From a virus, in the IMG/VR virus record IMGVR_UViG_3300005096_000078, positions 1 to 33,901 of that record: a stretch of 33,901 nt of DNA; one strand, written 5' to 3'. A model generated the notes under the pieces. It was not told the origin of the DNA and searched no databases. It saw nothing but the letters and a program-made list of their open reading frames with translations. How positions within the stretch are numbered: position 1 is the stretch's first letter; each line of letters opens with the position of its first letter. Both the position numbers and the translations under genes were made by a program. Shown here piece after piece: positions 3,126-33,901 of this stretch.

Positions 3126-3329
3126 TTAACCCACGCGTTGGGTCGATCCTTTGTTCTTTTTGTGCTTCTTTTCTGTGAGTTTTAAAACTCTTAAATCTAC
3201 TTCGCAGCCTGCGCAGATACTTGTTATGTTGTTTGTGCTATTTCCGCAGGTGCAGGTATATTTACCTACGCGATCACGCGGGTAAATGAACGTGTCGGGG
3301 GTGTTGAAGCTACTATTTACCCGGCCCAT
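3126..3329 (-). CDS. small zinc-ribbon protein, 67 aa
   Basis: Cys pattern C26-x-C28 and C39-x2-C42 (YTCTCGN...SICAGCE) suggests one bound zinc. The C-terminal third is very basic (LTEKKHKKNKGSTQR), consistent with nucleic-acid binding, which is an inference. The start overlaps the end of the upstream membrane-protein gene by 17 nt, so translation is probably coupled. The family is not recognised. Confidence 0.65.
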   Translation of the reverse strand: MGRVNSSFNTPDTFIYPRDRVGKYTCTCGNSTNNITSICAGCEVDLRVLKLTEKKHKKNKGSTQRVG

Positions 3330-3474
3330 TTATTTGTTCTGTGAGCTCGTCACAGCGATCGATGAGCTCGTTTAACCTTGAGCTATCGTCGGATTTGCCG
3401 TTGATGGCCAGGATTGACGAGAGGATGAAGCCGAAGATAAATGATACACTTGCTATGAAGTAGTAAATTAGCAT
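3313..3474 (-). CDS. small membrane protein, 53 aa
   Basis: A short reading frame beginning MLIYYFIASVSFIFGFILSS gives one N-terminal transmembrane helix (about residues 3-24), followed by a charged tail (GKSDDSSRLNELIDRCDELT). The start overlaps the stop of the upstream gene as TAATG, which is typical of coupling. Small one-helix proteins like this occur widely in phage accessory regions; no function is assigned. Confidence 0.65.
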   Translation of the reverse strand: MLIYYFIASVSFIFGFILSSILAINGKSDDSSRLNELIDRCDELTEQINGPGK

Positions 3475-3635
3475 TAGTTAAATACACCTCTCTGGTATGC
3501 CAGGTAGAAATGCCCTAACAAATACATTACGAAAAAGATGATAAAGTAGTTTGAGGCTTTTTCTATTTTTTTGTAAGCGCTGCTATCGAAGAAGCTGTTT
3601 TGATCCTTCGTTTTCCAAGTGTTTTTTGTTCTCAT
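3474..3635 (-). CDS. small membrane protein, 53 aa
   Basis: The frame is open from 3842, but the upstream part is the structured RNA and terminator described separately. The ATG at 3635 has a clear GGAGG about 10 nt upstream and begins MRTKNTWKTKDQNSFFDSS. A transmembrane helix follows at about residues 28-45 (NYFIIFFVMYLLGHFYLAY). It is the first gene after the terminator at 3664-3713, so its expression would depend on readthrough or antitermination unless another promoter exists. Function is unknown. Confidence 0.65.
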   Translation of the reverse strand: MRTKNTWKTKDQNSFFDSSAYKKIEKASNYFIIFFVMYLLGHFYLAYQRGVFN

Positions 3636-3663
3636 CGGTTTTGTTCCTCCAGGTGATAAAAAT

Positions 3664-3713
3664 AAAACAGACAAAGAACGATGCCTAGGATGGCTATGCT
3701 CTTTGTCTGTTTT
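3664..3713 (-). terminator. intrinsic terminator after the structured RNA
   Basis: A perfect 13 bp inverted repeat (arms CTTTGTCTGTTTT at 3713-3701 on the plus strand and its complement at 3676-3664) encloses a 24 nt loop. On the minus strand it is followed by TTTTATTTTT. This is a standard rho-independent terminator facing the minus-strand transcript. Confidence 0.85.
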
Positions 3714-3846
3714 TATCCCATGCGTTGCTGCTGGGACTGTCTCAGGCCAGAGCAAGGTCGCACGATGAAGTGGCAGGTTGGCTGCCGCGCCTTGATCTGG
3801 CTTGACTTGGTATGTAGGTGTTTGGGGTGTTAATGTACTCATCGTG
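3664..3846 (-). ncRNA. candidate structured RNA or leader with predicted pseudoknot
   Basis: A promoter lies just upstream and an intrinsic terminator just downstream. No ribosome site precedes the ATG at 3842, which lies almost at the predicted transcript start. Helices seen by eye: H2 pairs 3790-3800 with 3747-3757 (CCAGA/TCTGG and AAGG/CCTT with a 2x2 internal loop). A hairpin GGCAG/CTGCC sits at 3772-3786. H1 pairs the 5' end 3839-3846 (CACGATGA) with 3761-3768 (TCATCGTG), which lies inside the H2 loop and so makes an H-type pseudoknot. A further hairpin uses TCCCA/TGGGA. It could be a trans-acting phage RNA or a regulated leader of the genes from 3635. Confidence 0.6.
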
Positions 3847-3851
3847 TAAAT

Positions 3852-3880
3852 ACTATATCATCAAATTTGTTATTAATCAA
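3852..3880 (-). promoter_or_regulatory. sigma70-type promoter for the structured RNA
   Basis: On the minus strand, TTGATT (3880-3875) and TATAGT (3857-3852) are separated by exactly 17 nt. Each differs from the consensus hexamer at one or two positions. The predicted transcription start is near 3845, at the first base of the RNA helices. It lies in an AT-rich gap between the late terminator and the RNA. Confidence 0.7.
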
Positions 3881-3997
3881 ACCTAGAAAAAGTATGTTGT
3901 TGACTTGTTTTTAGCTATTAAATGCTTTTTAAGTACTAAAATCTGCTATTTGCGTATAAATGCTCTTAAATACGTTGAAATGCTATATATTAGAGTC

Positions 3998-4047
3998 AAA
4001 AAAAAGAATGAAGAGCCGTTAATAGTGCATAGCTCTTCATTCTTTTT
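3998..4047 (-). terminator. strong intrinsic terminator ending the late operon
   Basis: A perfect 16 bp inverted repeat (arms 4001-4016 and 4032-4047, core GAATGAAGAGC) has a 15 nt loop. On the minus strand it is followed by a run of eight T. It lies 24 nt after the last structural-operon gene. The A/T tracts on both sides could let it work in either direction, but no plus-strand gene is present to need that. Confidence 0.92.
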
Positions 4048-4070
4048 GTTTTAGGACTTTAAAGTGGTTA

Positions 4071-4328
4071 CTACTTTGCTATATTTGGGCGTACCAGCCT
4101 TAATTGGGGCTCTGACATCTCGAGGAACCAGCCTTGGCCTACCTGGACTGGGTCCTGCCGGAAGCTTGGCATTGTAGCGAGCATAACAAAGCCATCTTCT
4201 TGTAAGATTGCCTGTATTTTTTCTTGGCATTTTTTTATAGCGTTTTGCTCGTCTTCAGCCTCTTTTTGCTGTGAGGCTTGTATTGTTTTTTTTGCTGCTT
4301 CGATGTTGTCTATCTCTTCTTCTCTCAT
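4071..4328 (-). CDS. hypothetical protein after the tail fibre, 85 aa
   Basis: The first ~45 residues form a Glu/Lys/Gln-rich helix, probably coiled coil (IEAAKKTIQASQQKEAEDEQ). The C-terminus is more globular (QEDGFVMLATMPSFRQDPVQ). AAAGGAG precedes the ATG. Its position after the tail fibre would fit a fibre-assembly chaperone or fibre-associated protein, but I see no match to known tail-fibre assembly families. It is the last gene before the terminator. Confidence 0.75.
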   Translation of the reverse strand: MREEEIDNIEAAKKTIQASQQKEAEDEQNAIKKCQEKIQAILQEDGFVMLATMPSFRQDPVQVGQGWFLEMSEPQLRLVRPNIAK

Positions 4329-8521: not shown

Positions 8522-8543
8522 TGTTTTTGCCTTTAAAAATCGG

Positions 8544-8577
8544 TCGGATCTGACTGATCAGACTGATCGGACTGATT
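8544..8577 (-). repeat. GATC 9 bp repeat, copy 1
   Basis: Between the D stop and the W ribosome site the plus strand reads as 9 bp units of the form nGACTGATC: TGACTGATC, AGACTGATC, GGACTGATT. Three GATC sites lie 9 bp apart. The orientation matches the other copies, with the GACTGATT end against the upstream gene's stop. Confidence 0.85.
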
Positions 8578-13018: not shown

Positions 13019-13023
13019 AAATT

Positions 13024-13059
13024 GGTCGGATCGGACTGATTAGACTGATCCGACCGATT
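13024..13059 (-). repeat. GATC 9 bp repeat, copy 2
   Basis: Four 9 bp units lie directly after the tube gene stop: GGTCGGATC, GGACTGATT, AGACTGATC, CGACCGATT on the plus strand. Same phase and orientation as the other copies. Confidence 0.85.
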
Positions 13060-14954: not shown

Positions 14955-15164
14955 TTATTTACCTCCGTTATTTGTATCAGTCAGATCGGACGGATCAGAC
15001 GGATTTTTTTTCGTCTTCTTTTTTGCTGGCATTTTTTTCACCTTACCAGCTAAAAGGCTGTAAAAGGCTTGCTTACGGCCCATGTTTGCCGTATCGCCTA
15101 TTCTGTAATCTGTGCCGGTATAACCGACTATTGACTTTAATACCTTGTACGGCTCGGTTGCCAT
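14955..15164 (-). CDS. hypothetical protein, 69 aa, with repeat-coded tail
   Basis: A small protein between gpV and sheath genes. The first ~40 residues (EPYKVLKSIVGYTGTDYRIG) look folded, like a head-tail or baseplate accessory piece. The C-terminus is a Lys-rich run and then NPSDPSDLTDT, which is encoded by a GATC 9 bp repeat (copy 3). The last ~20 residues are therefore probably recent, low-complexity sequence. The start overlaps the stop of the upstream gene. Confidence 0.7.
   Translation of the reverse strand: MATEPYKVLKSIVGYTGTDYRIGDTANMGRKQAFYSLLAGKVKKMPAKKKTKKNPSDPSDLTDTNNGGK
14979..15005 (-). repeat. GATC 9 bp repeat, copy 3 (inside a coding end)
   Basis: The plus strand reads CAGATC, GGACGGATC, AGACGGATT in 9 bp steps. 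Unlike the other copies it is translated, giving the SDPSDLTD tail of the 69-residue protein. Confidence 0.75.
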
Positions 15165-15379: not shown

Positions 15380-15397
15380 TTCTTATCCTTTTTAATC

Positions 15398-15425
15398 TGT
15401 CGTATCGGACTGATCTGACTGATTT
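15398..15425 (-). repeat. GATC 9 bp repeat, copy 4
   Basis: Directly after the gpV stop the plus strand reads GTCGTATC, GGACTGATC, TGACTGATT in 9 bp steps, in the same orientation as the others. Confidence 0.8.
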
Positions 15426-16493: not shown

Positions 16494-16510
16494 TTTTCAC
16501 CTTTTATAAT

Positions 16511-16539
16511 CGGTTCGATAAGGCTGATCCGACTGATTT
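16511..16539 (-). repeat. GATC 9 bp repeat, copy 5 (degenerate)
   Basis: The plus strand reads CGGTTCGATA, AGGCTGATC, CGACTGATT in 9-10 bp steps between two tail genes. It is the most degenerate copy. Confidence 0.65.
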
Positions 16540-22353: not shown

Positions 22354-22395
22354 TGGATCGGACCGATCTGACTGATCAGTCCGATCTGACTGATT
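22354..22395 (-). repeat. GATC 9 bp repeat, copy 6 (longest)
   Basis: Between the capsid gene and the 62-residue gene the plus strand reads GGATC, GGACCGATC, TGACTGATC, AGTCCGATC, TGACTGATT, giving four GATC sites in 9 bp steps. It contains a perfect 12 bp palindrome GACTGATCAGTC and a GATCGG-A-CCGATC inverted repeat. Confidence 0.9.
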
Positions 22396-25182: not shown

Positions 25183-26730
25183 TCAGACGGCTTCATTATT
25201 AATCAGCTCGTTGCGTAATTTTTCCTCTTTTACACGCTTACGGTGTTTTGCTTCAAAATCGCCGCCTGTAAGAGCAGCAGTTTCTTCGGCGCGGGTACTG
25301 AAGCCGTTTTCGACTCGCTTCTGAGCTGCTATGACTTCTTTTATCGGGTCGATCTGGCCTTGCGTCGGCCCAATCCAGTCGGCTCGACAATAAGCTACTC
25401 GCGCTGCTGGGTCTTCAAAAAACCCTGGGGCAGCTATGCGGCCTATTGTGATAGCTTCTACAAGGAATTCTTCATACACTGGTTGGCAAAATCCACGTGC
25501 CAGCCAGGCTCTACGGCCTTGGTAAAATTTCCAACCCTGTAGAAATGCCGCGCGGGATGCAGTGTACGAGGAATCAAAGTGTTTAAGGAGAATTTCGACT
25601 GGTTGTTCCAGTGAAGCGCCGATTTGCTTGACAATTGCAAAAAAGAATGGGTCAAACTGGGAGTTCGGACGGCCCGGCGAGACCGTTTCAGCTTTTTCGC
25701 CGGGCGCGAGTCCGACCATGCTGCCGTGCCCAAGTTCGTATTCCTGGGGTGTTCCGGCTGTTGTCCCAGATGGCTCTGTTTCGCTGCCTGGAGTTGGATT
25801 ACCAAAACCAGATACAGTTTCTGAAGTGATAAATACTGTCAGCATTCCGCCTACTACGGCTGCCATTAATTCAGCCTGTGTGTAGCGGCCAAGCTGTTTT
25901 AAGGACTCAAGGACTGGAGCCAGATACGGGACGCCCCTTCTTTGCCCTGGGCGGTCAGGGCGGAAGAGATGGAGTACGTTTCTTCGGCCAGTGCGCTCTC
26001 CAAATGCAGGGACAGCACGCCAAACCTTAGGGGCAACATCAAGTGCGCCTGGGTGTTTATCAAGCATATGATATTTGACCGGTGCACCATATTTATCAAC
26101 TTCTATCCCTGCTGCAAGTCGAGATCCATCTTGCATGTAATCTGGTGTGCTTACCTGGTGACCTTCTACAAGCTTTATCCGGAGGTCGTATGGTAATGAT
26201 TTTCTGCGGGGAATCATTGGCAGTAAGGCAAACGCATCGCCACTTAACAGGGCAGATAAGAACATGAGCTCCTGCTGTTCATAAAAACAGAGAGTTCTCG
26301 CTGCGTCTGAGTCTTTCGATTCTGCAAAGAGCCTAAACTCGCGCTCTGTTTTGTTTTGCCAAGCAGTAGATTTACTATCGCTCATGCCCAAATATTGAGC
26401 ATCAAGCATTGAGTTTAGCTTGAGGCCGGTGCCAACCACATTTGTGACTCCTGTGCGGATTGCAGAGGTTGCGATTGGGATGTTGCGGAATGCATCATGC
26501 GAGCGCTCTCGCAATGTTGGCAGCTCATTAACTACCAGCTCATCCGCTGAGCCGGAATCAGTAAACCAATTCCGCATGCTTCGCAACGTCTGAGAAGCGC
26601 CGACGTATCCAGTGTCCTGCATTGCAGACACCTTCAGACGTGCATTATAACGAGCAATCCCCATAGCTGGGCTGAAGTGCGTTATTACACGGTCAAGCAG
26701 GGTAGGTTTTATTGAGAGAGCGCTAGACAT
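25183..26730 (-). CDS. portal protein (lambda gpB type)
   Basis: A 515-residue lambda-family portal. The N-terminal SIKPTLLDRVITHFSPAMGI, GYVGASQTLRSMRNW, LRERSHDAFRNIPIATSAIR with TNVVGTGLKLNS, and HLFRPDRPGQRRGVPYLAPV are characteristic. Length is close to lambda gpB (533). The start overlaps the upstream joining gene by 8 nt and the C-terminus overlaps the long form of the protease gene. It forms the dodecameric DNA channel. Confidence 0.96.
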   Translation of the reverse strand: MSSALSIKPTLLDRVITHFSPAMGIARYNARLKVSAMQDTGYVGASQTLRSMRNWFTDSGSADELVVNELPTLRERSHDAFRNIPIATSAIRTGVTNVVGTGLKLNSMLDAQYLGMSDSKSTAWQNKTEREFRLFAESKDSDAARTLCFYEQQELMFLSALLSGDAFALLPMIPRRKSLPYDLRIKLVEGHQVSTPDYMQDGSRLAAGIEVDKYGAPVKYHMLDKHPGALDVAPKVWRAVPAFGERTGRRNVLHLFRPDRPGQRRGVPYLAPVLESLKQLGRYTQAELMAAVVGGMLTVFITSETVSGFGNPTPGSETEPSGTTAGTPQEYELGHGSMVGLAPGEKAETVSPGRPNSQFDPFFFAIVKQIGASLEQPVEILLKHFDSSYTASRAAFLQGWKFYQGRRAWLARGFCQPVYEEFLVEAITIGRIAAPGFFEDPAARVAYCRADWIGPTQGQIDPIKEVIAAQKRVENGFSTRAEETAALTGGDFEAKHRKRVKEEKLRNELINNEAV

Positions 26731-26965
26731 CTATCGGAACAAACCTCCCGACAGTTGGCCCGGAACGTAAACCTTTCTCTAGCTGCTCCACTTCTCGCCG
26801 CCAGTAATTTATTTTATTAGTAATTACAGCAGCATCTGCACGGGTAACCTTACGCGCTGAAGAACCTTCGACGCTGATAGAATAATCCTGGTTGAGCGCA
26901 ACAGCCTTTTCAGCATCCAGCCAAGATGTAAGCATTGCGCGTGCTGTTTCGATAGTCCATGCAGC
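26723..26965 (-). CDS. head-tail joining protein gpW-like / DUF6148-like
   Basis: The ATG at 26965 follows GGAGG and encodes 80 residues (MAAWTIETARAMLTSWLDAE). The pattern, including ISVEGSSARKVTRADAAVIT and a final helix INYWRREVEQLEKGLRSG, resembles lambda gpW-like joining proteins found directly before the portal gene. It is the first gene of the head operon; in lambda the terminase genes would precede it, but none is found here. Confidence 0.85.
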   Translation of the reverse strand, partial: AAWTIETARAMLTSWLDAEKAVALNQDYSISVEGSSARKVTRADAAVITNKINYWRREVEQLEKGLRSGPTVGRFVPIDV

Positions 26966-26999
26966 CATTTTTATAATCCTCCGGGTGTTATAAACAGAA

Positions 27000-27197
27000 T
27001 ATAACCTGGTGGGTTGCAAAAATAGAAGAGGCTTAGTACTTGTGGGGCTAGATTACCTCTAGTGGTAATCTAGTAATTGAGTTGGTTGATAGATTTAAGG
27101 CTGGTGGGTTGGTCGATAGAAGAAGGTGTGAGCTGGCTAGATTTTACTTTTCATTATTTTTTGCTTGTTACTGCAATAAGTGGAAACTTTTGCACTG
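27000..27197 (-). promoter_or_regulatory. gene-free control region upstream of the head operon
   Basis: No gene is supported here. It contains a perfect palindrome with 10 bp arms (CTAGATTACC 27048-27057, GGTAATCTAG 27064-27073). Repeats of the form GGTTGGTYGATAGA lie at 27081-27100 and 27103-27127, and a related copy (GGTGGGTTG, then ATAGAAGAGG) at 27008-27031. These look like binding sites for a phage regulator acting on the late operon. A clear sigma70 promoter was not found. Confidence 0.55.
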
Positions 27198-27509
27198 TTA
27201 AAAATGTATACCTGCTTTATCAATCCTGGATCGCTTTTGCTCGATCTCGTTGATTATGGCAGTGAAGTCTTTCCCATCTGTCATCTCTTCAAGCTGTATC
27301 ATTATTTTCTCATTATTTAAGCATGGTTTTTTGTAGTAATTTTTGTCCATTGCATATTCACGTTTTTTCATTCCTACAAGTTCACGTACTTCACGGATAT
27401 CAAAAGGACGATCGCCCCAGAAATACCAATAAATAAAGCCTGCCCCGCGATAGATTTTCTTGCTCTCTATTTTCCATCCAGTCCATTTACCTTTTATCAG
27501 TTCGCCCAT
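27198..27509 (-). CDS. hypothetical protein, 103 aa; gene after attC-like site D
   Basis: The frame is open from 27605, but that part is the attC-like site. The ATG at 27509 (MGELIKGKWTGWKIESKKIY) has AGGAGG 14 nt upstream and lies 43 nt after the site's core box, as cassette genes do. The sequence contains GAGFIYWYFWGDRPFDIREV and a charged helical C-terminus (EQKRSRIDKAG). The family is not recognised. No attC-like site follows its stop; the control region begins there. Confidence 0.6.
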   Translation of the reverse strand: MGELIKGKWTGWKIESKKIYRGAGFIYWYFWGDRPFDIREVRELVGMKKREYAMDKNYYKKPCLNNEKIMIQLEEMTDGKDFTAIINEIEQKRSRIDKAGIHF

Positions 27510-27551
27510 TATATATATCAATGCCTCCTTTTTTAAAAAAAAATAAACATC

Positions 27552-27642
27552 ATTTAACAAGCGCCTAAACCAGACCGCGAATATGTCTGCATTGCTTCGT
27601 ATCATATCTGTGGTGCGGTCTGGTCAGGCTTGGTCGTTATAT
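27552..27642 (-). repeat. attC-like site D (91 bp)
   Basis: On the minus strand the site runs from ATATAAC (27642-27636) to GTTAAAT (27558-27552), a perfect GTTRRRY core box. TAAC pairs with GTTA, then after an unpaired spacer GCCT pairs with AGGC, one side carries an extra base, and CCAGACCGC pairs perfectly with GCGGTCTGG. This alternation of R boxes, spacer, L boxes and an extrahelical base is the attC fold. The inner loop is related to site B (shared TACGAAG and ATATTCGC). Confidence 0.85.
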
Positions 27643-27858
27643 GTTCCGGGTCTCATACCACTCATTACAGTTACAATCGCCACGTATTTTTTCATAAAAA
27701 GCGTCTGTTACTTCAATTTCTCTTATTACTGGTGGAACTCTGTTTTTTCTGTCCCAGTTAACATGTGCTGTAATGTATTTGTTCTTGCCCTTATACTTGC
27801 CCCTTACCTCTGCATCATTGTATGCTTTACCCAAGCCTGTTGGAATGCAACAGGGCAC
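27637..27858 (-). pseudogene. cassette gene, probably frameshifted at a C7 run
   Basis: The open frame of 73 codons begins at a GTG without a ribosome site (PCCIPTGLGKAYNDAEVRGK). Directly upstream, ATG at 27893 opens MISPP in another frame through a run of seven C. A C8 run (or a -1 shift) would join them into MISPPHTGTLTFVPCC and onward, about 85 residues. The body looks like a real protein (YKGKNKYITAHVNWDRKNRV, EIEVTDAFYEKIRGDCNCNE). The TAA stop lies in the inverse-core box of site D. The family is not recognised. Confidence 0.55.
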
Positions 27859-27934
27859 GAATGTCAGTGTTCCTGTATGGGGGGGCTAATCATGGTCAAA
27901 GCCAACCAGGTGGTAATTGTTTGTGGTTTCTGAA

Positions 27935-28195
27935 TCATTTGCTACTCGGTGGCATGACCATGAACTTGCATGCAGGTTGCTGATTCTCAAGGCATGATGT
28001 GCCACATGTTCGTGAATTCCATGCTTTTTCAGCCAATAGCGGCTTTGCATTACCGTTGTTTGGGCGTATCAATGGCCCATACGATTCGCATTGATTGCAT
28101 ATCACATAAGTTGCACCACAAGCGTGGCTCAATTCGATGTTTTCGCTTCCGCAAAAAGGGCAAGGTGACAGTTTGTGCTGGTTTTTCCATTCCAT
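27935..28195 (-). CDS. Lar-like restriction-alleviation zinc-ribbon protein, 86 aa
   Basis: The protein shows LSPCPFCGSENIELSHA with Cys pairs C12-x2-C15 and C34-x2-C37 and ends its domain with LLAEKAWNSRTC. This CPFCGS...CxxC...AExxWNxR layout is that of the Lar family, first described as proteins relieving type I restriction. Many phage homologues are untested. GGGAG precedes the ATG, which lies 41 nt after the core box of attC-like site A, so it is the first gene of that cassette. Confidence 0.8.
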   Translation of the reverse strand: MEWKNQHKLSPCPFCGSENIELSHACGATYVICNQCESYGPLIRPNNGNAKPLLAEKAWNSRTCGTSCLENQQPACKFMVMPPSSK

Positions 28196-28235
28196 TCTTT
28201 GCTCTCCCTTTATGTGTAATTAAAGTAAGTACAAT

Positions 28236-28321
28236 ATCTAACCCGTACCTAAACTTGACCGGGTAGTCACTGGTTCACCTTGCCTCATTCTCAGCCCGGC
28301 AAGTTAGGCTTATCGTTATGC
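28236..28321 (-). repeat. attC-like site A (86 bp)
   Basis: On the minus strand GCATAAC (28321-28315) begins the site and GTTAGAT (28242-28236), a perfect GTTRRRY, ends it. CCTAA, CTTG and CCGGG pair with CCCGG, CAAG and TTAGG, with one extra T between each pair of blocks on the 3' arm: two extrahelical bases, as attC sites have. The stop TAA of the upstream gene lies inside the inverse-core box. Nearly identical in outline to site F at 2573-2659. Confidence 0.88.
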
Positions 28322-28831
28322 CCACGATGAGTAGTCTACTGGTGAGTATCTGCGTGTTGTGTTAAATTCAATGTCGCCAACTTCGATCCACCTAACACCT
28401 TCACAATTAGGTTCTGGCGCAACAACACATTTAAATTCACCAGCATCAGCTCTGTCTGAGTTTAACGATACAACAACATGGATATCGGACCCGTGTCTCG
28501 TGACATAATCACCTACTCCGTATCTATCATCTTGCTCTCGCCAGTTGCTTGGAGAGATAAGCTTACTATCGAGAGGATGGCTAAGCATAACATCTGTTTT
28601 TTTCATATGAGCGATTGTGAGCAAAACATCAGGATCGTCTATTACATCTTGCGGGACCCCATGTGGCCAGCAGACTAAAACATCGCTGTGCTTCTTGGCC
28701 TTGGCTTTAATATTTGCACCGGTTGCACCTTCATGAAAAACGAATGGATTTTTACCCTGTATTGCCATCTGTGCTGCCATTCCTGTAGCAACTAACGACT
28801 TTCCTGTTCCACCGATTATAAATGTGACCAT
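28316..28831 (-). CDS. P-loop (ParA/MinD-like) protein, 171 aa; cassette gene
   Basis: The N-terminus MVTFIIGGTGKSLVATGMAA resembles the deviant Walker A loop of ParA/MinD-type ATPases (GGxGKS), though the preceding signature Lys is missing. AIQGKNPFVFHEGATGANI continues as the second strand. The rest contains DVLVCWPHGVPQDVIDD and DDRYGVGDYVTRHGSDIHV. At 171 residues it is much shorter than ParA (~250), so it may be a minimal nucleotide-binding protein. GGAGG precedes the ATG, 40 nt after the core box of site B; the stop is in site A. Confidence 0.7.
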   Translation of the reverse strand: MVTFIIGGTGKSLVATGMAAQMAIQGKNPFVFHEGATGANIKAKAKKHSDVLVCWPHGVPQDVIDDPDVLLTIAHMKKTDVMLSHPLDSKLISPSNWREQDDRYGVGDYVTRHGSDIHVVVSLNSDRADAGEFKCVVAPEPNCEGVRWIEVGDIEFNTTRRYSPVDYSSWA

Positions 28832-28870
28832 TTAAATACCCTCCGTCCTTTTAAAATAAAATCAAAAAAC

Positions 28871-28950
28871 TGCTAACAAGCGCCTAAGTTAGATTGCGAA
28901 TATATCTGTATTACTTCGTATGATACTTTGTGGCGCGTGCCTGGTCAGGC
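28871..28950 (-). repeat. attC-like site B (80 bp)
   Basis: On the minus strand GCCTGAC (28950-28944) begins and GTTAGCA (28877-28871) ends the site, preceded by TTAGGCGCTT as in classical attC right ends. GCGCC pairs with GGCGC. The left arm is more degenerate than in A and D. The TGA stop of the upstream gene lies in the inverse-core box. Confidence 0.7.
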
Positions 28951-29253
28951 CTCAAGATCGTCTGGATGGATCCTAAATACAACAGGCACCAACTGCTTGA
29001 GATGTCGGCGAACATTATCCAGCTGTTCCCTTAGCACTGAGTTCCGTGCTTCCAGCTCGCTACTCTCTTCCGATATCCTTAGAGCAGATGCATACGACTC
29101 ATCATCGACATACGAAAGCTCTGCAAATCCGCTCAGCGAATAGCCAATTGGCTGGGCAAACTGAACCCTCTCTTGGTCAGTAAAATCCATCATCGCAAGC
29201 TTATTCATGTCTATTGGTCCAAGTTCTAAGAGCATGGACCAATACGGTTGCAA
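28945..29253 (-). CDS. hypothetical coiled-coil protein, 102 aa; cassette gene, start unclear
   Basis: The frame opens at a TTG at 29253 (after QPYWSMLLELGPIDMNKLAM) and ends in a coiled coil (RISEESSELEARNSVLREQL, DNVRRHLKQLVPVVF). No ribosome site supports this start. A separate 41-codon frame with a strong AGGAGG overlaps it from 29351 and is the more likely N-terminus, so a frameshift may join the two. The stop lies in attC-like site B. The family is not recognised. Confidence 0.55.
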   Translation of the reverse strand: MQPYWSMLLELGPIDMNKLAMMDFTDQERVQFAQPIGYSLSGFAELSYVDDESYASALRISEESSELEARNSVLREQLDNVRRHLKQLVPVVFRIHPDDLEA

Positions 29254-29351
29254 ACGAATCGGCCTTGATGTATTGGCTGCAAAGGCATAACCATCCGCTC
29301 AACTTGGTCGCCTAAACCTATAGGGCGTTTCTCGTCTTGTGGCTTGTCCAT
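29226..29351 (-). CDS. 41 aa reading frame, probable 5' part of the cassette gene
   Basis: ATG at 29351 is preceded by AGGAGG with about 9 nt spacing and lies 48 nt after the core box of site E, exactly where a cassette start should be. It encodes MDKPQDEKRPIGLGDQVERM and stops at 29226, overlapping the 102-residue frame by 28 nt. It is either a small independent protein translated before the 102-residue one or the N-terminal part of a single frameshifted gene. Confidence 0.55.
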   Translation of the reverse strand: MDKPQDEKRPIGLGDQVERMVMPLQPIHQGRFVCNRIGPCS

Positions 29352-29398
29352 TTTTTTATTACCTCCTATTTCGTGTCACAATGCTTTACGTTTAAAAA

Positions 29399-29485
29399 AC
29401 CTAACCAGCTACTGAAGCCGACCCTGTAGACGGCTAATGGTCTTTGCCACGCCTGTAGCAGGGCGGAAGAGCACAATCGTTAGTT
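29399..29485 (-). repeat. attC-like site E (87 bp)
   Basis: On the minus strand AACTAAC (29485-29479) and GTTAGGT (29405-29399), a perfect core box, pair through CTAAC/GTTAG. Inside, GCT pairs with AGC and CCG-CCCTG pairs with CAGGG-T-CGG, with one extrahelical T. The inner sequence is unrelated to the other sites, as is usual between attC sites. Confidence 0.75.
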
Positions 29486-29486
29486 G

Positions 29487-29606
29487 TCATTCCTCGAATA
29501 TTTCGATGTCTTTTCCTGTAGCTTTTATTGCATGCTCGTGATTTATTAACCACTCAACAAACGTGTAATATTCTGGCCTCGGCGTTGTCCCTAAAAAGGT
29601 TCTGGT
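29487..29606 (-). pseudogene. startless 39-codon gene remnant before attC-like site E
   Basis: Immediately after the TAA of the 29607-29879 gene, and in the same frame, 39 protein-like codons follow (TRTFLGTTPRPEYYTFVEWL, INHEHAIKATGKDIEIFEE) to a TGA just before site E. No ATG, GTG or TTG is present. It is either the 3' remnant of a truncated cassette gene or a stop-codon readthrough extension. Confidence 0.5.
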
Positions 29607-29879
29607 TTATTTTGCTATATCTGAGATTGTGGGATAGTTTGGGCTATGATCCCTATTACTGACTCCGATTAAGCATTTGTCAGCAACAACAAATGCACGG
29701 CCTTCAAGCTCACAAATAGGTAAAATATACTTACAGCTATCACTATTAGTCGCATGCCAGGAATACAGGATATGGTGTTCTGTGATTGCACATACTATTA
29801 TTGGTTTATGTGCATAGCTCAAATCTGACCTAAATACCTTGGTAGCTATTATCCAGTCGCCTACTTTAAATTGTTTCAT
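29607..29879 (-). CDS. hypothetical protein, 90 aa
   Basis: I start at ATG 29879 (MKQFKVGDWIIATKVFRSDL) because AAGGGG lies 5-6 nt upstream; the longer frame from 29954 overlaps the previous gene. The N-terminus FKVGDWI resembles small beta-barrel (SH3-like) domains common in phage accessory proteins. The rest includes ICELEGRAFVVADKCLIGVS. The family is not recognised. Confidence 0.65.
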   Translation of the reverse strand: MKQFKVGDWIIATKVFRSDLSYAHKPIIVCAITEHHILYSWHATNSDSCKYILPICELEGRAFVVADKCLIGVSNRDHSPNYPTISDIAK

Positions 29880-29896
29880 ACATTCCCCTTCGGCTA

Positions 29897-30271
29897 CTAG
29901 CGCTCTAGCAGCTCCATCAAAGTATCCACCCTTTCCCTTAGCTCTGATTTCCAAATATTTGGGAGCCGTTTTTCGTGCACTGAATATCTGCGCATGGCAT
30001 CAATTATCTGTATTAGCCTGGTATATGCCTTATTTGTCTCAAAATCAAGTTTCGGGATAAGTCCAAGGGGTGGTTTTTCTTTATCTTTAGGTGTATCAGC
30101 TTGCTCGACAATATCAAGTAAGGTTAATGCGTCCCTGAATGCTTCAGCTTTGAGCTTGTGACATGCACGGGATGTAAGATCAAAGGCACTATCAGCAGCA
30201 GCAATAAGCATATTTAAGCGTGCTCTGTAGTCTGATATTTTAATGTCGGATTCTTCGATGTCTGCTTTCAT
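29897..30271 (-). CDS. helical hypothetical protein, 124 aa
   Basis: Almost entirely alpha-helical by composition (ESDIKISDYRARLNMLIAAA, KAEAFRDALTLLDIVEQAD), with a basic C-terminal helix (WKSELRERVDTLMELLER). AAGGAG is 8 nt from the ATG. No catalytic motif or membrane segment is visible. The family is not recognised. Confidence 0.65.
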   Translation of the reverse strand: MKADIEESDIKISDYRARLNMLIAAADSAFDLTSRACHKLKAEAFRDALTLLDIVEQADTPKDKEKPPLGLIPKLDFETNKAYTRLIQIIDAMRRYSVHEKRLPNIWKSELRERVDTLMELLER

Positions 30272-30338
30272 GGTATGCTCCTTAAATTATTTTTTATTTG
30301 CTGCTACAATAGGTATTAAGTTCCTATTTATTTCACTA

Positions 30339-30725
30339 CTACCTGTACACATATTCAGAAATAACCGGTAAGCGGACTCTTTCTTCTTGCCCCGGGTATC
30401 GTCCAATCCTCAGATCCACCATTCCAAATACTATTGCGTGCCTAATTTTACCTATCTTATATTTAATACCTATCACTTTTCCCCAATCGCTAGGCACTGA
30501 TCGAGCATAATATGTCGACTGATTCAGCAATGGTAATAAACATTTTTGCAGCATTTCAACCGTAAAAGTCATCGTCCCATCATGTCCACATTGTTCTATG
30601 CGGCAGTATTGTCCATCTGACACTTTCATGTCTGCACAATATTCAATATGGCCCGTGTCTGCTTCTGGCCAATATCGGTTTATTAACTGTATCGGGTCAT
30701 GGTATTCCTTTGAAAAAGTACTCAC
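30339..30725 (-). CDS. hypothetical protein, 128 aa (GTG start)
   Basis: GTG at 30725 follows AGGAG at 6-7 nt. The sequence is mixed alpha/beta (STFSKEYHDPIQLINRYWPE, MKVSDGQYCRIEQCGHDGTM, VIGIKYKIGKIRHAIVFGMV). Two Cys in CRIEQCGH do not make a full zinc site. The family is not recognised. Confidence 0.6.
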   Translation of the reverse strand: MSTFSKEYHDPIQLINRYWPEADTGHIEYCADMKVSDGQYCRIEQCGHDGTMTFTVEMLQKCLLPLLNQSTYYARSVPSDWGKVIGIKYKIGKIRHAIVFGMVDLRIGRYPGQEERVRLPVISEYVYR

Positions 30726-30734
30726 AACAATCTC

Positions 30735-31016
30735 CTACTTGACGCTCTCAAAAGTGATACTTAGTAAATCTTTTAGATCATCTGTCGTTTTCCTAATTGC
30801 ATACAGATAAAGACCATCTTCAGGATCACAAAAGATTGAAACCGGGGATCCATTAGACTTTACTGTCCATTCATAAAATTCCAAGATTCTGTCAGTTGCT
30901 TCAAATTGTACTAGACCTTTCTCTTTGAGCAATTCCGAAAAATCTTCCCTTTCGTCATCTGTTAATTTCCCGAGTAGCTCGTTCCAAATTATTCCTAGCT
31001 CATTATTTTTAGGCAT
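30735..31016 (-). CDS. acidic hypothetical protein, 93 aa
   Basis: A small acidic protein (NELGIIWNELLGKLTDDERE, DFSELLKEKGLVQFEATD). AAGGAG lies inside the end of the upstream 32-codon frame, 7 nt from the ATG, so translation may be coupled. Acidic proteins of this size can be DNA mimics or antitoxin-like, but there is no specific evidence. The family is not recognised. Confidence 0.6.
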   Translation of the reverse strand: MPKNNELGIIWNELLGKLTDDEREDFSELLKEKGLVQFEATDRILEFYEWTVKSNGSPVSIFCDPEDGLYLYAIRKTTDDLKDLLSITFESVK

Positions 31017-31017
31017 T

Positions 31018-31116
31018 TCATTGCTCCTTAGTAATAGTCTCTGAAATAGTAAACGTAATTGTTCTTGGCACTACTTCGTCGAAATTCGACATGAAAGTCA
31101 TCTCTTTAAGCTCCAT
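31018..31116 (-). CDS. small protein or leader peptide, 32 aa
   Basis: ATG at 31116 follows GGGGG at about 8 nt and encodes MELKEMTFMSNFDEVVPRTI and 12 more residues. Its stop TGA is 1 nt before the next gene's ATG, and its last codons contain that gene's AAGGAG. This arrangement suits a coupling leader peptide. Too short for ordinary gene finders. Confidence 0.5.
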   Translation of the reverse strand: MELKEMTFMSNFDEVVPRTITFTISETITKEQ

Positions 31117-31146
31117 TATAAATACCCCCATAAACTTAACATATAG

Positions 31147-31329
31147 TTATGCCCATAATAAAAAAGCAGCCCATAATAAAAATGGCACCATAATTAGAAT
31201 ATGGGCAGCATCTGAACCTGTAGATTTAGGTTTACTTGCTCTCGGATATTCATCAGCAGCAAGAACAATAATCCTTACAATGAAACTAAATGCTGCTAAG
31301 CAGAAATTCACTAAGATATAGGTTCTCAT
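31147..31329 (-). CDS. small membrane protein, 60 aa
   Basis: Two hydrophobic segments, about residues 3-26 (TYILVNFCLAAFSFIVRIIV) and 43-60 (AHILIMVPFLLWAAFLLWA), flank a polar loop (ADEYPRASKPKSTGSD). It is a two-helix inner-membrane protein of unknown role. AGGAGG lies just upstream of the start. Confidence 0.65.
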   Translation of the reverse strand: MRTYILVNFCLAAFSFIVRIIVLAADEYPRASKPKSTGSDAAHILIMVPFLLWAAFLLWA

Positions 31330-31365
31330 TTTTCCCTCCTAGTCCAATCAAAACACACCTCGACC

Positions 31366-31791
31366 CTACACATTCTTTAATCCTCTCTCGATAGCAGCGC
31401 TCAGCTGATGCAAAGAAGATACTGGGAATCTTATGTCCCCACAAAAAAGTACTTTGTGGAACCTTGGAAGTGCAAGGTTTTTAGCTTCAACTTTTCTTGT
31501 AGCCTTTTCATTTGCTGCTCGGATATCGAATGGGATAGTTGGATGTTGATTGTAAAAATCATGAGGGAAATACCAACACCGTCCATCACCTCCGTAGTAT
31601 CCGTTTTCTGTATACTGTTCCTGCCAGTCGCATTTTTTAAGTATCTGAATAATTTCTTGCCTTTTCTTTTCGGCGAAAGGTTCTTCAGCGAAATGAGACG
31701 TTAATTGTATTTCAACACAATCACCTTCATTGGGATACGATCCACCACAAACTGACAACTTACCGGTTGGGTTAATTTCCATTTTCTTCAT
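31366..31791 (-). CDS. hypothetical protein, 141 aa
   Basis: The ATG at 31791 (MKKMEINPTGKLSVCGG) has AAGGAG nine nt upstream, so the longer frame from 31830 is rejected. The protein includes EEPFAEKKRQEIIQILKKCD and YGGDGRCWYFPHDFYNQHPT. It has no membrane segment or recognised motif. Confidence 0.6.
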   Translation of the reverse strand: MKKMEINPTGKLSVCGGSYPNEGDCVEIQLTSHFAEEPFAEKKRQEIIQILKKCDWQEQYTENGYYGGDGRCWYFPHDFYNQHPTIPFDIRAANEKATRKVEAKNLALPRFHKVLFCGDIRFPVSSLHQLSAAIERGLKNV

Positions 31792-31816
31792 TTTATTCTC
31801 CTTTAGTTTATTTACC

Positions 31817-32203
31817 TTACATACACCCATTTATAAGCCCTTTTGTCTCCTGAGCTTCTGGCGAGCTTGGATTTTCAGCGAAAAACCCAACAATCTTCGG
31901 AATATTCTCACTACCCGAATAATGGCACGTGCCATCAAGCCCGGCCCAGTAGACTCCAGTTGCAAAAACAGAGGACACCGAAATGCCACCGAAGAGGTTG
32001 TGACCACAAACAGAGGCGGACGAATCTTTACTCCAAACTTTTGGTGTATTTTTATGCCCACAGAATGGGCATTTAAGGAACATCAGCTTTAAGGTTTTGG
32101 TGATGTTGCACGGGTCAAACATTTTAACACCAAGCCTGTTTAGCTCAATAGCGTCAATGCTCAGGCCTTTTACTGCACCCCAATCTCTTATATAATCTGA
32201 CAT
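31817..32203 (-). CDS. zinc-binding hypothetical protein, 128 aa
   Basis: The centre contains KCPFCGHKNTPKVW (C45-x2-C48) and a further C66 with H68, consistent with a zinc ribbon. The N-terminal ~40 residues (DYIRDWGAVKGLSIDAIELN) resemble a short helical region. A role in DNA or protein binding is possible. The family is not recognised. Confidence 0.6.
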   Translation of the reverse strand: MSDYIRDWGAVKGLSIDAIELNRLGVKMFDPCNITKTLKLMFLKCPFCGHKNTPKVWSKDSSASVCGHNLFGGISVSSVFATGVYWAGLDGTCHYSGSENIPKIVGFFAENPSSPEAQETKGLINGCM

Positions 32204-32221
32204 TTAACCCTCCAAATATAA

Positions 32222-32392
32222 CTATAGATCTTTATTATGTTTTTTCTTATGCCTAGCTACGGCGCTGGCCTTTGCCATCTCAGTAGCCTGTTGCTTTGTT
32301 AGTGTTCGCTTGGACTTCTTACCACCTTTGCTTGCAAGGTGGTGTGCAACTAGTTGGTCACTAATATCTTTGCCACAATGTGGACACTTCAT
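32222..32392 (-). CDS. basic zinc-finger-like protein, 56 aa
   Basis: MKCPHCGKDISDQLVAHHLA starts with a C3-x2-C6 pair and has H17-H18, giving a possible short zinc finger. The rest is strongly basic (GGKKSKRTLTKQQATEMAKA, RHKKKHNKD), similar to the tails of small phage DNA-binding proteins. It is too short for most gene finders, but the composition is clearly protein-like. Confidence 0.6.
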   Translation of the reverse strand: MKCPHCGKDISDQLVAHHLASKGGKKSKRTLTKQQATEMAKASAVARHKKKHNKDL

Positions 32393-32424
32393 TCTTATTT
32401 ACCCCTCCCTTACCTCTTTTGGTT

Positions 32425-32862
32425 TTACATTATTACACATCCTCTCGCTTTAGTTTTATTCCTAAATTGATAGTACCAGCCCTGTTTCCCTGTAACTCCA
32501 GACCACTCACTGCTAAAGAAAAATCCTTTCCTTTCAACCCACTCTAGCCACTTAAACTCACCTTCAATTTTACGTGGGATGGCCAGCCAATATTTATGCC
32601 ACACATTTCTTCCTGATTTTGCCATGCCAGGCATTTCGAGGGTGGTGTAATATAAAGAGGTGCCTATTATTTTAACTATCCCAACCCATCCGTAAATTTC
32701 TTTGTTACTTAATGCTTTAATAGCTTCTTCAATGTTTGTAGCATTAAAAATAGTGCCTGCATCGCGCATTTGCACGACAGATAAATCATTAGCTGGTAGT
32801 CTTACTATTGTCATGTTCTCTAGTTCTTCCATTTTAAGGCCTTGACTCGTTTTACTCATCAC
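32425..32862 (-). CDS. hypothetical protein, 145 aa
   Basis: The start (GTG 32862 or ATG 32859, MSKTSQGLKMEELENMTIVR) overlaps the end of the upstream gene. The protein is mixed alpha/beta with several Trp (GWVGIVKIIGTSLYYTTLEM, WHKYWLAIPRKIEGEFKWLE). Its first ~15 codons belong to the repeat duplicated at 33682-33763. The family is not recognised. Confidence 0.6.
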   Translation of the reverse strand: MMSKTSQGLKMEELENMTIVRLPANDLSVVQMRDAGTIFNATNIEEAIKALSNKEIYGWVGIVKIIGTSLYYTTLEMPGMAKSGRNVWHKYWLAIPRKIEGEFKWLEWVERKGFFFSSEWSGVTGKQGWYYQFRNKTKARGCVIM

Positions 32863-32905
32863 GGAAGGCCTTTACGCAATCAATTGCCTCCATTAACAGC
32901 TTTTG
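32821..32905 (-). repeat. ~80 bp direct repeat, copy 1 (intact genes)
   Basis: This segment covers the end of the 86-residue gene (IDCVKAFRDE) and the start of the 145-residue gene (MSKTSQGLKMEEL). A copy with a few changes lies at 33682-33763 in the same orientation. Confidence 0.85.
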
Positions 32906-33112
32906 CCGTTGTTCCCTCGTTAAGGGACGAATGAAGTCAATCACATCATTAATGTGGTCTGGGACCTCAACTCCATCGAACCATTCCATGCATGATGTTA
33001 TAACTGCTACAGATAAAGACTTGGTCTCCAGGTAACAATCGTAATGATTCCCAATTTCAAGCCCCTTATTGAGCTTGTTGATGTCTTCAGTTGTCATTTC
33101 TGCGAAGTTCAT
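32852..33112 (-). CDS. hypothetical protein, 86 aa
   Basis: An acidic, helical protein (MNFAEMTTEDINKLNKGLEI, EWFDGVEVPDHINDVIDFIR). AAGGAG is six nt from the ATG and lies after the stop of the upstream gene. Its last codons (AIDCVKAFRDE) are part of the direct repeat whose other copy is at 33682-33763. The family is not recognised. Confidence 0.6.
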   Translation of the reverse strand: MNFAEMTTEDINKLNKGLEIGNHYDCYLETKSLSVAVITSCMEWFDGVEVPDHINDVIDFIRPLTREQRQKLLMEAIDCVKAFRDE

Positions 33113-33121
33113 AATTGCTCC

Positions 33122-33538
33122 TTATTTACCTTGCTGCAATATGGACACTTCATTTGCGAGCCTCCGGCATTTTTTTGCTCGGAACATAAAGCAGTCGTGC
33201 CTTTTCTTTTGTTCTGCATTATCTAGCAAGCCGTCAGCATCGTATACAAGTGCATCAACTGCAGACGCTTCAAGCTTTTCAGCTTCAGCTATTAACTCAC
33301 CACTTTTTTCAGTGGCTGCTTCTGCTGGGTAATCAGACATCCACTCAACGAGCGCTGCTTCGGCTGTGTGTAGTAGGTTGTAATATTCGCCCGGATAATT
33401 CTTATGGGCGTTCGCTTTTGCAAACATTGCTGCTACTTTGGCTCTCGTAACTATTGCAGGGCTACAACGGGCTGCTTCACTTTTTATTTTATAGTCAGAC
33501 ATAGCCCGCTCTACAGCTAACCTGCTCTCACCAGGCAT
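33122..33538 (-). pseudogene. hypothetical protein with a lost 5' end (138 aa from the first ATG)
   Basis: The frame from ATG 33538 gives 138 residues (PGESRLAVERAMSDYKIKSE, EALVEWMSDY-like segments, a basic C-terminus). Coding-like sequence continues upstream for ~50 codons (TTEYITDNNQVRRLRRSQAE, GYNPAGWFALLVNGKIIQAV) until the copy-2 repeat, with no ATG, GTG or TTG start. The original 5' end was probably replaced by the repeat. A CTG start or internal initiation remains possible. Confidence 0.6.
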
Positions 33539-33681
33539 GACTGCCTGGATGATTTTGCCGTTAACGAGCAGTGCAAACCATCCAGCAGGGTTGTAGCCTG
33601 CCTTCTTAATTGCAGATATTATATCTTCTGCTTGACTGCGTCGCAGTCGACGGACTTGATTGTTATCCGTAATATATTCAG

Positions 33682-33763
33682 TAGTTCTTCCATTTTAAGG
33701 CCTTGCTTGTTTTACTCATCACGGAAGGCCTTTACGCAATCAATTGCCACATTACCAGCTTTT
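33682..33763 (-). repeat. ~80 bp direct repeat, copy 2 (decayed)
   Basis: Copy of 32821-32905. A one-base deletion after AAAACAAG changes the reading frame of the MSKTS gene start, which now stops after 13 codons (MSKTSKALKWKNY). One end lies against the truncated gene 33122-33538, the other overlaps the stop of the partial gene at 33763. Confidence 0.85.
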
Positions 33764-33901
33764 CATGAAAATTGCTCTCTTAGTTCTGAGAGCGGATAGA
33801 CTTCATCCTCCTGCCAAAGACAGGGGATATGTGTGTTTCTCTTCATCCCGAACTCTATCGACACAGGCATTAACTGCCCGCGGAAGATGGCGAACGCTTC
33901 C
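33763..33901 (-). CDS. partial hypothetical protein, C-terminal 45 residues
   Basis: An open frame enters from the right edge and stops at TGA 33765-33763. The sequence (AIFRGQLMPVSIEFGMKRNT, WQEDEVYPLSELREQFS) is clearly protein-like. The true start lies outside the window. The family is not recognised. Confidence 0.6.
   Translation of the reverse strand, partial: EAFAIFRGQLMPVSIEFGMKRNTHIPCLWQEDEVYPLSELREQFS

Follow-up and report, generated by a model that had tools for sequence, protein, structure and literature searches.

The 6S RNA of phage lambda is 194 nt in length and belongs to the pR′-6S-tR′ arrangement, in which a strong promoter is followed by a non-coding RNA of ~190 nt, a strong intrinsic terminator and then genes. 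The mechanism of Q antitermination at pR′ has been described (PMC6606751), and 6S is also listed among the Hfq-dependent phage sRNAs (PMC12197685). Phage HK022 has the put element, ~70 nt of RNA with two adjacent long stem-loops directly downstream of a phage promoter (PMC9378689), which suppresses termination without the need for a phage protein. Other systems of related appearance are the fluoride, ZMP and preQ1 riboswitches, with a pseudoknot-capable 5′ domain and then a terminator before a gene, and the phage small RNAs PreS, OOP and VpdS, which are short, terminated, intergenic transcripts. Here we describe a unit with likeness to each of these in an uncultured tailed phage, known from IMG/VR virus record IMGVR_UViG_3300005096_000078. 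The whole record, 33,901 bases, is the window of this analysis.

Portal, head protease, decoration, major head, tail sheath and tape measure genes were found on the minus strand only, as were P2-type tail and baseplate genes and a tail fibre, and every recognised gene of the window lies on this strand. No terminase or integrase was identified among the window proteins scanned, so the window is probably a fragment. A terminase gene was likewise not found upstream of the portal gene (26723–33901), its usual place being occupied by small genes, one of which (27935–28195) codes for a Lar-like restriction alleviation protein. The nearest relatives of the phage are distant, the major head protein having its nearest IMG/VR relative at 51% and matching prophages of one bacterial order at 59%, 56% and 52%, and the baseplate protein having its best relative at 57%. 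A gene at 386–898 weakly matches the thumb of DNA polymerase beta (PolX-like), with only four IMG/VR relatives found (48–53%).

Between the late genes there are six intergenic elements of 30–40 nt (8538–8577, 13020–13059, 14975–15005, 15394–15424, 16508–16538 and 22356–22395) with a 9-bp period, reading GATCNGACN on the plus strand and ATCAGTCNG on the minus strand. With up to three mismatches, GATCGGACNGATC occurs 58 times against 14.9 expected. Exact 22-nt arrays of such repeats were found in six of 251 genomes of the nearest-prophage class, nine times in one of these (G055), and a reversed control pattern gave zero matches in the six array-bearing genomes. The phage thus seems to carry an intergenic repeat of host type, which would be a pointer to its host.

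The late (tail) operon ends at 4071 and is followed on the minus strand by a terminator (T1), an AT-rich gap, a promoter, an RNA body, a second terminator (T2), a GGAGG ribosome site and small genes. The promoter-like site, an 8-nt complementarity within the RNA body, the terminator, the ribosome site and this gene order can be read directly from the letters of the window. T1 (3998–4050, minus strand, −21.2 kcal/mol) is a bidirectional intrinsic terminator closing the late operon, with 19-nt arms, a 15-nt loop and T-tracts on both sides of its inverted repeat. The gap with the promoter has a GC content of 27%, compared with 55% for the RNA body, whose flanks are at 27% and 35–40%. Every element of the promoter-RNA-terminator unit named in the preliminary description was found, all on the minus strand, and at the sequence level the predicted unit is clear and insulated.

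A motif scan places a sigma70-type promoter at 3852–3880 (minus strand), with TTGATT at 3880–3875, a 17-nt spacer and TATAGT at 3857–3852, together with the TG of an extended −10 at 3860–3859; the predicted transcription start is 3847–3845. The spacer is as had been described, whereas "near-consensus" was too strong a term for a site scoring 9/12. Sites of this score number 10 in 4.2 kb, where 7.9 would be expected, and, although this one has the joint top score among minus-strand sites of the window, the promoter by itself is not beyond chance. The motif TTTGAT occurs twice in it, 16 bp apart. There is also a −10-like CACGAT at +2 (if the start is 3847), which matches TATAAT at 3/6 positions, keeping A2 and T6, and could easily be chance.

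The predicted terminator T2 (3655–3713, minus strand) is far beyond chance. Its arms (3713–3700 and 3677–3664) form a perfect stem of 14 bp with a 22-nt loop, followed by the U-tract TTTTATTTTTATC. The hairpin with its extension has an energy of −28.6 kcal/mol, its pairs have probabilities of at least 0.98 in the ensemble of the whole leader, and as a self-matching inverted repeat it is also terminator-like on the plus strand. The stem lies 182 nt after the promoter, in agreement with the proposed layout of a ~180-nt transcript ending at a terminator, the stem of which had been given as 13 bp.

The best alternative pairings of the T2 arms with the leader reach just −8.8 and −10.8 kcal/mol. A transcription-attenuating riboswitch was rejected, as there is no competing antiterminator fold and T2 forms with a probability near 1. 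The fluoride, ZMP and preQ1 riboswitches differ further in that here there is no Rfam match and no metabolic gene. Since the alternative pairings are so much weaker than T2, control of this terminator, if it occurs, would more likely come from a factor acting on the polymerase than from an RNA switch. Of the riboswitch-like or antitermination leader that had been suggested, the former is not supported, for want of an antiterminator, and the latter is compatible with the locus, with no site of a known type recognised in it. The other choice put forward, a non-coding RNA gene or a terminated leader, suits the predicted anatomy of the unit in either form.

The RNA body is predicted to fold into a main hairpin of 64 nt (3742–3805, minus strand), in which P2 (GTC, GCCAGA and CAAGG with their partners) is capped by P3 (3786–3782/3776–3772). 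A second hairpin directly before T2 (3717–3735, minus strand) is weak, so that of two additional hairpins described earlier only one is real. The extreme 5′-terminal segment CACGATGA (3846–3839, minus strand) is exactly complementary over 8 nt to TCATCGTG (3768–3761, minus strand), which belongs to an internal loop within the main hairpin. As had been proposed, this pairing (P1) predicts an H-type pseudoknot; the duplex would contribute −9.2 to −11.5 kcal/mol. By inspection, the pseudoknot seems sterically feasible, with a loop 1 of more than 30 nt and a short 3-nt connector at the P2-proximal end of P1; a single P1 base competes with a 3-bp CGC/GCG extension of P2. Because a 5′ P1 would thread into P2 beside P3, an HDV-like ribozyme was considered as a candidate, and was rejected as there is no P4 and no Rfam match; tRNA and tmRNA identities were also excluded.

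In shuffled sequences a 5′-anchored helix of at least eight Watson-Crick pairs is found with p=0.013. Against dinucleotide shuffles the fold has p=0.002 for its minimum free energy (MFE) and p=0.012 for the loop pairing, the two together being reached in none of 3000. Among real window stretches with a GC content of at least 0.48, 0.3% pair as strongly and 3% reach an equal energy sum. The z-score of the whole 182-nt RNA is −8.1, mostly due to the terminator; with the terminator removed it is −2.6, and five of 200 shuffles fold equally well. When adjusted for GC, the MFE of the RNA body is average among real stretches of the phage. The shuffles are therefore beaten, yet 3% of real GC-rich stretches match, which makes the modelled 5′-end pseudoknot suggestive and not established. 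The RNA 5′ end (3843–3833, CGATGAGTACA) and the start of the first gene after T2 (3636–3626, CGATGAGAACA) share CGATGAG-ACA, and the loop sequence TCATCG could thus pair with either of them.

That gene codes for a 53-aa protein with one hydrophobic segment (3474–3635, minus strand), for which no relatives were found. Its ATG at 3635 is 28 nt downstream of the T2 stem and, in accordance with the good ribosome site described previously, is preceded by the Shine-Dalgarno sequence GGAGG at 3650–3646 (minus strand). The second gene (3313–3474, minus strand) also encodes 53 amino acids, with an N-terminal membrane segment and a charged tail, and more small genes follow. No promoter scoring at least 9/12 was identified between T2 and ATG 3635, a loose scan giving one 8/12 site. 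With T2 so close to the ATG and no such promoter between them, the gene would most simply be reached by read-through of T2, from either the leader promoter or the late operon. As T1 cuts off the late operon just upstream, the leader promoter would be the natural source.

Our best explanation, put forward tentatively and with somewhat less than even confidence, is that the unit serves the small-gene operon as its promoter-proximal leader, with termination by default and read-through by processive antitermination, as in lambda pR′-6S-tR′. What we infer beyond the elements above is that the unit is transcribed, that termination is its default, that a factor takes part and that the pseudoknot may have some role. 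RNA polymerase would start at ~3846 and make a folded RNA of ~180 nt, and by default would stop at T2, leaving the downstream membrane-protein and small genes off or low. Polymerase made resistant to terminators, the probable agent being an antitermination factor of the phage that loads at the promoter or leader, would pass T2, and the operon from 3635 would then be expressed. The short terminated RNA would accumulate as a by-product and may also act in trans. The promoter, short terminated RNA and following genes that mark a lambda-type late leader are all seen at the sequence level in this stretch of DNA, in the lambda order and with a similar predicted RNA length. However, where lambda has a QBE and a Q gene, no QBE repeat, convincing −10-like pause element or nearby Q gene was recognised here, nor were elements of the Q, N, nut or put type. 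An antitermination protein gene was likewise not found among the scanned proteins of the window, itself probably a fragment. Against the leader reading, the unit sits at the end and not at the start of the late operon, following the structural genes, whereas the lambda late leader precedes them. In a syntenic prophage (G128), peptidase-like and holin-like genes (named by eye from their translations) come after the tail fibre. With lysis-type genes at the corresponding place, late and gated expression would suit, and it is plausible that the two small membrane proteins after T2 are lysis-related and gated.

A search for relatives of the RNA gave no family match. Rfam 15, proposed earlier as a check, gave no match above the gathering threshold in the whole window, and a permissive scan of 3600–3900 gave chance-level matches only, the best (E 0.055) being to a Plasmodium snoRNA with a score of 28 of 60 bits. 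Blastn of the RNA against phages, plasmids and E. coli genomes found only short chance pieces, and IMG/VR searches with the 122-aa product of a frame inside the unit and with an 85-aa neighbour found no relatives. Using the capsid, baseplate and PolX-like neighbours as baits, over 200 related phage loci were obtained; blastn did not find the RNA in these, nor did a covariance model built from the one sequence in the loci to which it was applied. For the bacterial class with the nearest prophage capsid, the genomes had only chance pieces of 20–40 nt and no covariance-model match. The sequence, pattern and covariance-model searches, which took in 258 genomes, gave no relative of the RNA, in collections that may omit records very near the window. 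A DNA pattern of the helix core had 20 matches, coding-like and with no further similarity, the terminator pattern had no match, and the P1-pair pattern matched 18 loci without covariance-model support. The predicted RNA is thus a single sequence with no relatives detected in these searches, and is not shown to be a member of any family. In 3.15 Mb of related loci, nothing comparable to terminator-promoter-terminator within ~390 bp, both stems being at least 16 bp, was found, so it is not an arrangement that this group of phages has in common. As it is absent from all other phages examined, conservation lends the leader reading no support.

A doubtful though serious alternative is that the unit is a stand-alone phage sRNA gene, insulated by T1 and T2, whose product acts in trans on an mRNA, Hfq or a host protein, with the downstream operon served by something else. 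The long-stem terminators on both sides agree with this, as do the GC-rich body between AT-richer flanks, its folding better than shuffles and an inner frame with no ribosome site. However, an sRNA gene would have no need of T2 only 28 nt before a well-served start codon, and conserved relatives and a target were not found, the CACGATGA/TCATCGTG pair occurring only once elsewhere in the window. PreS, OOP and VpdS likewise differ in that no sequence relation to them was found.

It is unlikely that the locus is just an ordinary promoter and an operon-boundary terminator, one of them incidental, with a functionless RNA body and a pseudoknot arising from chance complementarity. The chance-level promoter score, the 3% of real GC-rich stretches that reach the energy sum, the average GC-adjusted folding of the body and the lack of conservation in the collections searched would all fit such a boundary. 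Set against it are the ~390-bp layout of two terminators and a promoter, unseen in 3.15 Mb of related loci, and a complementarity placed exactly at the RNA 5′ end, with none of 3000 shuffles matching jointly.

Inside the unit a frame of 122 codons (3474–3842, minus strand; from the ORF list, with codon scoring) continues through T2 without a stop, in the reading frame of the first 53-aa ORF. It starts 3–5 nt from the predicted RNA 5′ end, its ATG being within the P1 5′ strand. That this is a leaderless coding sequence, where translation gated by P1 controls termination or yields a fusion protein, is improbable. Over 69 codons the frame has no stop, which is also the case in 7% of shuffles, and 95–99% of shuffles fall below its codon score, which is near the score of the 53-aa ORF itself. 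Nevertheless, this score is below that of every late-gene piece of equal length, no protein relatives were found (IMG/VR included), and a terminator is the better explanation for the perfect 14-bp stem within the frame. There is also no ribosome site, as stated in the preliminary description, the best upstream match being 3/6. Least probable of all is that the pseudoknot acts as an antitermination RNA of a new kind, either by itself or by binding a factor, and decides the passage of T2, possibly through closing or opening access to the 5′ AUG. Such an RNA, folded and just 3′ of a phage promoter as put is, may act on polymerase in a put-like way, but it would be unrelated to put in structure, having a 64-nt hairpin and a weak one in place of two long stem-loops.

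If the unit is a terminated leader, the phage would have a termination-gated operon of non-structural genes, an example from outside the lambdoid phages. Should the pseudoknot act on polymerase, put would be joined by a second antitermination design based on RNA alone.
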